In this document: positions 29,917 to 34,925 of the stretch, piece after piece
Layout: every line of letters starts with the position of its first letter
Position numbering within the stretch: position 1 is the stretch's first letter
NCBI GenBank assembly: GCA_949294735.1
Contig: CASFII010000001.1
Coordinates: 62,001-126,000 of the forward strand
DNA length: 64,000 bases
Source: an uncultured Coriobacteriaceae bacterium
GTDB taxonomy: Bacteria > Actinomycetota > Coriobacteriia > Coriobacteriales > Eggerthellaceae
Direction of reading: 5' to 3'
Position numbers and translations under genes: made by a program
The notes under the pieces: generated by a model
Databases searched by the model: none
What the model was told of the DNA's origin: nothing
The model's input: only the letters and a program-made list of their open reading frames with translations

Positions 29917-30717
29917 CTACACAATTTTCTTACCAAAAACCGCAGCAATCTTACGAAGCTCTTCCACCAAGTCTGCGAACTGTGCAGGCGTCAACTGCTG
30001 AGGACCATCAGACAAAGCAGTAGGCGGATTAGGATGTACCTCAATCATGAGAGAATCGCAGCCTGCGGCAATAGCGGCCTTAGCTAATGGCGGCACCAAG
30101 TCACGCACGCCAGCCGGATGCGAAACATCCACGCAAATAGGATACAGGCTCTGCTTGTGCACTACGGGAACTGCAGAAATATCCAACGTAAAGCGCGTAG
30201 CCGTTTCAAACGTACGCAAACCGCGTTCGCATAAGACTACATTATTGTTGCCTTCCATGGTGATGTAGTCACAGGCAGAAAGCCATTCGGAAATGGTTCC
30301 CGCAAACCCACGCTTAAAAAGCACCATTTTGTGCGAATCGCGCGTGACGTGACCGATGTTTTTGAGAAGGCTGAAATTCTGGAAGTTGCGAGCGCCTACC
30401 TGCAAACCATCCACATAGGAATGCACCATTTCGCAGTGCGCTGAATCCATAACTTCAGTCAATGTTTTAAGGCCGTATTTTTCACCCGCATCGGCAATGA
30501 TTTTCAAAGCTTCTTCACCTAAGCCCTGAAAAGAATGGGGGTTAGTACGTGGTTTAAACGCCCCACCGCGGATCCAATGCAAGCCTAAATCCGAAACGCA
30601 CTGAGCGATTTCATCGACCTGTTCAGCGCTTTCGATAGAACAGGGACCTGCAAAGATGGTGATTTCGTCGGTAAGGGTGCCGTAATCTGGCAACTTATGT
30701 GCTATTGCTTCATTCAT
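29917..30717 (-). CDS. aroF: 3-deoxy-7-phosphoheptulonate synthase (DAHP synthase, type I beta)
   Basis: First step of the shikimate pathway: condenses phosphoenolpyruvate and erythrose-4-phosphate. The 266-residue core enzyme has FAGPCSIES, the RGGAFKPRTNPHSFQG substrate loop, LQVGARNFQN, VLFKRGFAGT, CVDVSHPAG and the metal/ligand motif LMIEVHPNP. It belongs to the short, unregulated-core I-beta group. The start overlaps the chorismate mutase stop by four bases (ATGA). Separate chorismate mutase and DAHP synthase in one operon suggests the two work as a pair, as in fused Gram-positive enzymes. Confidence 0.93.
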   Translation of the reverse strand: MNEAIAHKLPDYGTLTDEITIFAGPCSIESAEQVDEIAQCVSDLGLHWIRGGAFKPRTNPHSFQGLGEEALKIIADAGEKYGLKTLTEVMDSAHCEMVHSYVDGLQVGARNFQNFSLLKNIGHVTRDSHKMVLFKRGFAGTISEWLSACDYITMEGNNNVVLCERGLRTFETATRFTLDISAVPVVHKQSLYPICVDVSHPAGVRDLVPPLAKAAIAAGCDSLMIEVHPNPPTALSDGPQQLTPAQFADLVEELRKIAAVFGKKIV

Positions 30718-31004
30718 ACCGACGGCGTCTCCTTCATAACTTTCAAAATGGTTGCATAGATTTCTCTGAGATTTTCGTTATAGAGCGGACCTTCGTTGTA
30801 GCTATTGATGCGCTCGAAGATTTCTTCTTCGCGCTTCGGATCATACAAACCCATACGAGCACCAGGCTTTAGTCCGCGAATAACCAACGAATGACCAGCG
30901 CGTTTGTTTAAAAGCGCCACCAACTGTTGGTCTATTTCGTCAATTTTGGCACGATGCTCTTGAATAGCAGCGAGGGTTGCGTTTTCGTCAGGTAGCTGAG
31001 CCAT
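30714..31004 (-). CDS. Chorismate mutase (AroQ fold)
   Basis: A 96-residue all-helical protein. The helix IDEIDQQLVALLNKRAGHSLVI is the CM_2/AroQ signature (arginine and lysine substrate contacts), and YDPKREEEIFERI supplies the second helix. It converts chorismate to prephenate for phenylalanine and tyrosine synthesis. In several bacteria this domain is fused to DAHP synthase to give feedback control; here it is a separate gene overlapping the DAHP synthase gene by four bases. A regulatory role through complex formation is inference. Confidence 0.88.
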   Translation of the reverse strand: MAQLPDENATLAAIQEHRAKIDEIDQQLVALLNKRAGHSLVIRGLKPGARMGLYDPKREEEIFERINSYNEGPLYNENLREIYATILKVMKETPSV

Positions 31005-31172
31005 CGTTTTTCCTTTCCCTCAAAATAAACTCGAATTGCACTTGCCCCAATCCAATTCGATTTGAACATAATAGCAAAAGCACGCAAACATGCCTGTCCC
31101 GTATTTCGTATTGCAACAACTTTTTTATCAAGTTTTGCTATGATACGTCCGTCCTTACGAACAGGAGAAACC

Positions 31173-31592
31173 ATGATTAAAGAACTGGTAAAAGACGAAG
31201 CACTTCTTTCCCAGCCGTGCGAAAAAGCTACCATTGAGCACGCTTCAATTGCCCAGGATTTGCTGGACACCATGGCATCTTTAGATGATGCTGCCTGTTT
31301 GGCTGCCAACCAAATTGGCGAAACAGTGAGCATCATTGCGTATTTAGACGAAAAAGAACAACCACAGATTATGTTTAATCCTGTGCTTAAGCGTGCTTTG
31401 GGCGCCTACAAAACCTTAGAAGGTTGTCTGACCCGCGAAGGTGACACTAAGGTAACACGCTTTGCTCGCATTACGGTTGCTTTCGATGAACTGGTTGATG
31501 GCGAACTGAAGCCTCGCAAACGCGAATTTGTTGACTACACGGCTGAAGTTATCCAGCACGGTATTGACCATTGCAAGGGAAAATTGGTGTAG
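31173..31592 (+). CDS. Peptide-deformylase-like protein lacking the catalytic glutamate
   Basis: A 139-residue homologue of peptide deformylase. Motif 1 is ACLAANQIG (residues 41-49), motif 2 is EGCLTREG (C85, metal ligand) and motif 3 is IQHGIDHCKG with H129 and H133. In active enzymes motif 3 reads QHExDH; here the glutamate is Gly130 (codon GGT). All three metal ligands remain. The protein is also short at the C-terminus. It is probably a paralogue with altered or no deformylase activity; a canonical copy should exist elsewhere. GGAGAAACC precedes the ATG at 31173. Confidence 0.85.
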   Translation: MIKELVKDEALLSQPCEKATIEHASIAQDLLDTMASLDDAACLAANQIGETVSIIAYLDEKEQPQIMFNPVLKRALGAYKTLEGCLTREGDTKVTRFARITVAFDELVDGELKPRKREFVDYTAEVIQHGIDHCKGKLV

Positions 31593-31701: not shown

Positions 31702-31777
31702 GGGGCATTAGCTCAGCTGGGAGAGCGCGGCGTTCGCAATGCCGAGGCCAGGGGTTCGATCCCCCTATGCTCCACCA
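31702..31777 (+). tRNA. tRNA-Ala (CGC)
   Basis: Complete 76-nt cloverleaf with encoded CCA. The acceptor stem pairs GGGGCAT with ATGCTCC and contains the G3-U70 pair that identifies alanine tRNA. The anticodon loop is TTCGCAA (anticodon CGC, for GCG codons), and the T-arm contains GGTTCGATCC. Confidence 0.96.
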
Positions 31778-33498: not shown

Positions 33499-34089
33499 AT
33501 GAACTACTACATTGCAGACCCGCACTTCGGGCACTCAAACATCATCCATCACACAGACAGACCGTTTCGTGATGCAGCTGAAATGGACAAACTTATGATT
33601 GCAAACTGGAATGCGCGAGTGAACAAGGATGATCACGTATACATTGTGGGAGACTTTTCGTTTCGCTCAGCTGAAAGCGTGGACACCTATTTAAAGCAAC
33701 TGAATGGTATTAAGCATCTTGTTATTGGCAACCACGATTTCCGCTGGATGCATAAGGTGGATCTCAGCGCCTATTTTGAAGAAGTGGGGCTTATGCTGCA
33801 GACACGGGACGAAAAGCAAGCCATCCTTTTATGCCACTATCCTCTTATGACGGTACCACGCGGATATGTCCAGGTATATGGGCATATTCACAACAACACG
33901 CATGAAAAGTTTTGGTCGTTGCTTTCCACTTACGAAAACGCCTTCAATGCAGCAGTTGAGCTCAACAGCTATATGCCCGTTCCGCTGCCCGAACTGATTG
34001 TGAACAATGAACGTTTCAAGGCTGAATGGCGCGAAGCAGTAGAGCTGGAAGAACTGGAAGAACTGCTGCGCCAGGAGGAAAGCTACTGA
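33499..34089 (+). CDS. Calcineurin-like metallophosphoesterase
   Basis: Di-metal phosphoesterase of 196 residues. Metal-ligand motifs in order: DPHFGH (residues 7-12), VGDFSF, GNHDF, CHYP and GHIHNN. Phage and bacterial relatives of this short family hydrolyse phosphodiesters or phosphomonoesters in vitro; the natural substrate is unknown. The C-terminal 20 residues are strongly acidic. An ideal AAGGAGGAAAA precedes the ATG. A second, different metallophosphoesterase follows 107 bases downstream. Confidence 0.88.
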   Translation: MNYYIADPHFGHSNIIHHTDRPFRDAAEMDKLMIANWNARVNKDDHVYIVGDFSFRSAESVDTYLKQLNGIKHLVIGNHDFRWMHKVDLSAYFEEVGLMLQTRDEKQAILLCHYPLMTVPRGYVQVYGHIHNNTHEKFWSLLSTYENAFNAAVELNSYMPVPLPELIVNNERFKAEWREAVELEELEELLRQEESY

Positions 34090-34196: not shown

Positions 34197-34925
34197 ATGA
34201 CTATCTATATAACAGGAGACACGCACCAAGACATTGATGTGCACAAACTCTCAAGCAGAGCTTTTCCGCTCGGTAAAACTCTCAAGCGCAATGACTATGT
34301 CGTTGTCTGCGGAGATTTTGGCTGTATATGGCACGGAGACAACCGCGACGACTATTGGTTAGATTGGTACGAAAGCAAGCCGTGGACGACGCTTTTTGTT
34401 GACGGGAATCATGAAAACCATGAGGTGCTTTCCAATATGGAAGTTGGCAAGTGGCACGGCGGTAAGGTTCACTACGTACGCGAACACGTCATCCACCTTA
34501 TGCGGGGCGAAGTCTATACCGTTGATGGTCTGAAAATCTTTTCCATGGGCGGTGCTCGCTCAACCGACCGCGAATGGAGAACCGAAGGAGTTTCCTGGTG
34601 GCCAGGAGAAATGGCAAGTGCCTCAGAAATTGAATACGCATTGACAAATTTAGAAGCCCACAACATGCAGGTAGATGTAGTGCTCACTCATACCGCACCC
34701 AATTATTTGCTTCGCAGCATAGAAAAACACTACGGAGCCACGTGGAAAGAGTTCGACGAAGATCCACTGACGAACTTCTTTGAGCACCTGCGCGAAAACC
34801 TAACGTTTCGGCAATGGTTTTTCGGGCACTTTCATACCGATGCGCTTGATTTAGACTCTAAATTTACTGCGCTCTATAACAACATTGTGAGCTTAGATGA
34901 GATATTTAACCTGAAACACTGCTAG
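34197..34925 (+). CDS. Metallophosphoesterase, second family member
   Basis: A 242-residue protein with GDTHQDID near the N-terminus, CGDFGCIW, DGNHENH, LTHTAP and FGHFHTD, the five metal-binding motifs of the calcineurin fold. It is not a close copy of the preceding phosphoesterase: motif spacing and inserts (the HGGKVHYV and GGARSTDREWR regions) differ. Adjacent placement and direction suggest co-transcription, although 107 bases separate them. The substrate is unknown. It is convergent with a small membrane-protein gene. Confidence 0.86.
   Translation: MTIYITGDTHQDIDVHKLSSRAFPLGKTLKRNDYVVVCGDFGCIWHGDNRDDYWLDWYESKPWTTLFVDGNHENHEVLSNMEVGKWHGGKVHYVREHVIHLMRGEVYTVDGLKIFSMGGARSTDREWRTEGVSWWPGEMASASEIEYALTNLEAHNMQVDVVLTHTAPNYLLRSIEKHYGATWKEFDEDPLTNFFEHLRENLTFRQWFFGHFHTDALDLDSKFTALYNNIVSLDEIFNLKHC

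Follow-up and report, generated by a model that had tools for sequence, protein, structure and literature searches.

In characterised peptide deformylases, the glutamate of motif III acts on the metal-bound water as a general acid/base. Type 3 deformylases, which occur in archaea, in trypanosomatids and as accessory copies in S. aureus and S. pneumoniae, have altered catalytic motifs and often stand alongside an active enzyme. Their substitutions lie in motifs I and II and leave them weak or inactive, according to a survey of accessory deformylases published in 2025 (PMC12690207). The same survey reports that some altered-motif deformylases are active, that more than one deformylase is present in nearly half of bacterial species, and that the exact classical motifs occur in only 61.9% of these proteins. 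A review of metallopeptidase pseudoenzymes lists cases of general-base loss (PMC11266112). A class of short deformylases, modelled as NF006670/PRK09218, is known from Coriobacteriales, Clostridia and phages.

Here we describe a family of deformylase homologues from Coriobacteriales that, like type 3 deformylases, carries altered catalytic motifs next to a second enzyme, but is set apart from them by description: the motif III glutamate is lost and the metal ligands are intact. We found no account of such a protein from Coriobacteriales in the open-access literature, and the accessible portion of the 2025 survey (PMC12690207) does not mention it; this large family is apparently undescribed.

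A deformylase homologue with glycine at the catalytic position

The window, meaning the whole 64,000-nucleotide stretch that was analysed, contains an ATG-initiated reading frame of 139 codons with a ribosome-binding-like sequence just 5′ of it (Table 1). Its product passes the gathering threshold of Pfam PF01327 (70.7 bits, cut-off 22.8), scores under the cut-off of TIGR00079 (55.8 bits, cut-off 103.95), and matches the NF006670/PRK09218 equivalog over its full length at 117 bits, under the curated cut-off of 162. The best library models for members of the family are all named peptide deformylase. Motif III reads QHGIDH, and the HExxH motif with the catalytic glutamate of an active deformylase (EC 3.5.1.88) is therefore absent, while the cysteine and two histidine metal ligands of that enzyme are present (Cys85 TGT, His129 CAC, His133 CAT). 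Motif II keeps EGC, with Glu83 encoded by GAA, and a glycine of motif I is replaced by cysteine. The earlier note's reading of GGT (Gly130) in place of the glutamate, with Cys85, His129 and His133 kept, proved exact when the sequence was read again.

Table 1 Features of the glutamate-less deformylase gene and its immediate neighbours, in window coordinates
Feature	Position	Strand	Evidence
Chorismate-mutase/DAHP-synthase pair, divergent neighbour	29917-31004	-	
Shine-Dalgarno-like AGGAG, 5′ of ATG	31162..31166	+	sequence reading
Glu-less peptide-deformylase homologue, 139 aa	31173..31592, stop included	+	ORF; PF01327 70.7 bits; AlphaFold pLDDT 96; Foldseek
Gln47 codon CAA (E. coli Gln50 equivalent), family-invariant	31311..31313	+	sequence, alignment
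Motif II Glu83-Gly84-Cys85; Cys85 is the metal-ligand equivalent	31419..31427	+	Glu83 and Cys85 in 184/184
Glu89; acid in 181/184 family members, Pro in most canonical deformylases	31437..31439	+	alignment
Motif III His129-Gly130-Ile131-Asp132-His133 (HGIDH for HExDH)	31557..31571	+	both His in 184/184
Gly130 (GGT), catalytic-glutamate position	31560..31562	+	sequence
tRNA-Ala, neighbour of the Glu-less gene	31702-31777	+	

An AlphaFold model made with 41 input sequences (pLDDT 96.2, pTM 0.90) has deformylases, including those of B. cereus and E. coli, as its top PDB matches in Foldseek, with query TM-scores of about 0.8-0.9. The deformylase fold is thus predicted with high confidence; the model speaks to the fold, not to activity or metal content. 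Canonical Def (PF01327, TIGR00079) and the glutamate-less proteins share this fold, the cysteine and two histidine ligands, the oxyanion glutamine and the surroundings of motifs I and II. Unlike canonical Def, the window protein has no catalytic glutamate and, at 139 residues, no C-terminal extension.

Glutamate loss across the family

We aligned 184 distinct sequences scoring at family level, gathered after widened sampling, with 156 other deformylases (62 short relatives and 94 others). The glutamate is kept in all 156 comparison proteins. At position 130 the 184 family members carry Met (134, or 73%), Gly (18), Ala (17), Ile (5), Thr (3), Leu (3), Val (2) or Cys (2), and never Glu, Asp or Gln. 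The suspicion that similar variants form a family is thereby borne out, all 184 coming from Coriobacteriales. The earlier note had also asked whether glycine itself is conserved, and it is not; the conserved trait is the missing glutamate with retained metal ligands, rather than Gly. A sequencing error, already thought improbable, or a lone mutation is rejected as the cause of Gly130, since independent homologues share the loss and QHGIDH itself is found again in independent genomes, Gordonibacter among them (L038, L044).

Gln47, Glu83, Cys85, Arg96, His129 and His133 are invariant in 184/184 sequences, as is Leu43 in a 41-row alignment, and 18 columns are invariant across the families of the order. 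Homologues of equal length and 46-71% identity occur in Eggerthellaceae, Atopobiaceae and Coriobacteriaceae. Two positions of the substrate groove differ from other deformylases: the residue aligned to Arg97 (position 92) is Arg in 62/62 short relatives and never in the glutamate-less family, and the Gly45 equivalent (position 42) is mostly Cys. Position 89, four residues past the cysteine ligand, is variable in the short relatives and almost always acidic in the family. Close pairs (dS < 0.25) give dN/dS of 0.03-0.46 and are under purifying selection; the median over wider pairs, 0.34, deserves less trust, as synonymous sites there are close to saturation.

Relationship to the short deformylases

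The glutamate-less sequences form one clade in a tree built with the glutamate column removed (SH-aLRT 96), and again after columns 47 and 130 had been taken out and relatives from Clostridia and phages included (bootstrap/SH-aLRT 100/99). The short deformylase family is the sister of this clade (97/87), and the window protein's clade stands outside the NF006670/PRK09218 clade; these placements come from a short alignment with long outgroup branches, and the root depends on the choice of outgroup. Both groups belong to the same length class. Short PRK09218-type proteins keep the glutamate and have Met at the glutamine position in 58/62 cases, whereas the glutamate-less family keeps the glutamine and lacks both the glutamate and Arg92. 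Basal phage members of the short family retain both Gln and Glu, and its main part has exchanged Gln for Met, so that each sister lineage dropped a different catalytic-site residue. Within the glutamate-less clade the earliest branches carry Cys, Ala or Gly at position 130, and the Met-rich part is nested.

Short deformylases with Met for Gln were seen in Coriobacteriales, Clostridia and phages (L006, L036, L135, L181-L207, L211-L225). Rhizobial deformylase-like proteins (L093, L097, L100, L104) are, like the glutamate-less family, degenerate homologues of the PF01327 type. Their motifs EGSVS and QHEIDQ show the reverse of the window pattern, the glutamate being kept and the cysteine and second histidine ligands lost.

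Distribution and genomic context

Matches occur in 253 of 349 sampled Coriobacteriales genomes, about 231 with the glutamate-less family and 22 with the short sister only, the two groups being split by an E-value gap of about 1e-42 to 1e-54. Carriers of the glutamate-less gene include the common gut genera Collinsella, Olsenella, Gordonibacter and Slackia, and presence is patchy among 60 relatives (28 carriers). In a search for the family beyond the order, all matches examined in 296 genomes of the phylum contain the glutamate, and no glutamate-less member was found among the matches examined in 291 genomes of a Clostridia record's class or on viral contigs. Phage or plasmid origin is rejected: matches there reach at most about 43% identity, and those examined on viral contigs keep the glutamate. 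RHG motifs in some phage sequences were a pattern-matching artefact, the actual motif being QHEMDH.

Every one of the 60 relatives has PF01327 matches, and all 28 carriers have a canonical def as well, a separate second copy scoring above 140 bits. In the source genome, which is 86% complete without effect on this finding, a canonical def (G000:C6:124236-124685; motifs GCGLAAPQ, EGCLS and QHEIDH) adjoins a formyltransferase-domain gene (fmt) on the same strand, as in the def-fmt pair. The window protein is therefore not the genome's only deformylase; a sole copy was, together with normal activity, what the earlier note named as telling against its reading. The companion copy it proposed to look for is present, and its proposal of a paralogue that keeps the metal ligands agrees with this second gene and the intact Cys85, His129 and His133.

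The glutamate-less gene stands alone between the divergent chorismate-mutase/DAHP-synthase pair and the tRNA-Ala gene, which is followed by a class I/II aminotransferase gene. No conserved operon partner across genera was found in the neighbourhoods compared, in which first-pass gene calls are unreliable at G+C-rich loci; neighbours resembling UvrA or methyltransferases are shared only inside individual lineages. An obligate pairing with the short sister is rejected because each gene occurs without the other, the source genome being one that has the glutamate-less gene and no short sister.

Two further arrangements were observed. In genome G027 (L135:4641-5486), a glutamate-less and a short glutamate-containing copy lie in tandem on the same strand with 18 bases between them, and a second glutamate-less copy lies on another contig. 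The window itself also holds two adjacent phosphoesterase-looking reading frames (33499-34089 and 34197-34925; VGDF and GNHD or GNHE) with no Pfam match at an E-value of 1e-5.

Possible functions

With the glutamate gone and all else kept, the pocket is expected to hold its metal but to turn over little or not at all, which favours a binding role. We lean modestly towards the window protein being a conserved pseudo-deformylase, loaded with metal, that can bind ligands of the formyl-peptide type but does not turn them over normally. Cys85, His129 and His133 would load a divalent metal, the formyl/Met pocket would still be offered, and it could take up N-formyl-Met peptides or an inhibitor of deformylases such as actinonin; the metal-bound water would not be activated, and turnover would not proceed at a useful rate. 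Rather than serving as a housekeeping deformylase, such a protein may bind, compete for or sense nascent chains or peptides that carry a formyl group. The substrate groove adds a caution: with the Arg97 equivalent lost and the Gly45 equivalent mostly Cys, the pocket may have lost its ability to bind formyl-Met, and the changes at positions 42 and 92 warn that the ligand may differ from it. Together with the near-invariant acid at position 89, they could point to a different chemistry.

That acid is an argument for a slow or specialised hydrolase with narrow substrates, in which residue 89 or a metal-bound hydroxide replaces Glu130. The fully conserved metal ligands and oxyanion glutamine fit such an enzyme, and low activity is possible in light of the altered-motif deformylases described as active in the 2025 survey (PMC12690207). 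By alignment, however, position 89 corresponds to E. coli Pro94, on a strand leading away from the cysteine ligand, and three family members manage without an acid there; we regard such a hydrolase as unlikely. The invariant ligands beside a changed substrate groove could also suit some other metal chemistry, or a structural or regulatory metal site such as a redox or metal sensor, with no remaining link to formyl peptides. Where position 130 is Met, as in most members, a Met would then join the Cys and the two His close to the metal. Gly, Ala, Thr and Val also occur at position 130, so a Met ligand is no requirement, and the substrate- and oxyanion-site residues Gln47, Glu83 and (in the 41-row alignment) Leu43 are as invariant as the ligands, which makes this an unlikely explanation. 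Patchy presence among relatives and the loss of a catalytic residue might suggest a decaying, pseudogene-like duplicate. Uniform length, the 18 invariant columns and retained metal ligands across the order's families, a close-pair dN/dS clearly under 1, and occurrence in roughly two thirds of the Coriobacteriales sampled make such a relic very improbable.

Beyond the pseudo-deformylase reading of the window protein, we tentatively consider that an order-wide family may have been repurposed for a non-hydrolytic task at the intact metal site, whether as a receptor for formyl peptides, a decoy that titrates antibiotics or a sensor of metal or redox state, after the sister short-deformylase lineages had each discarded a different catalytic residue. 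Proteins named deformylase without the residue held essential for catalysis are spread over common gut Coriobacteriales. If they only bind, they would offer a clear-cut example from nature of a pseudo-deformylase that carries its metal, with possible roles in formyl-peptide handling or in tolerance of deformylase inhibitors, and PF01327 gene counts would overestimate deformylase redundancy. Should they prove active, the accepted view of what the motif III glutamate does would have to be revised.
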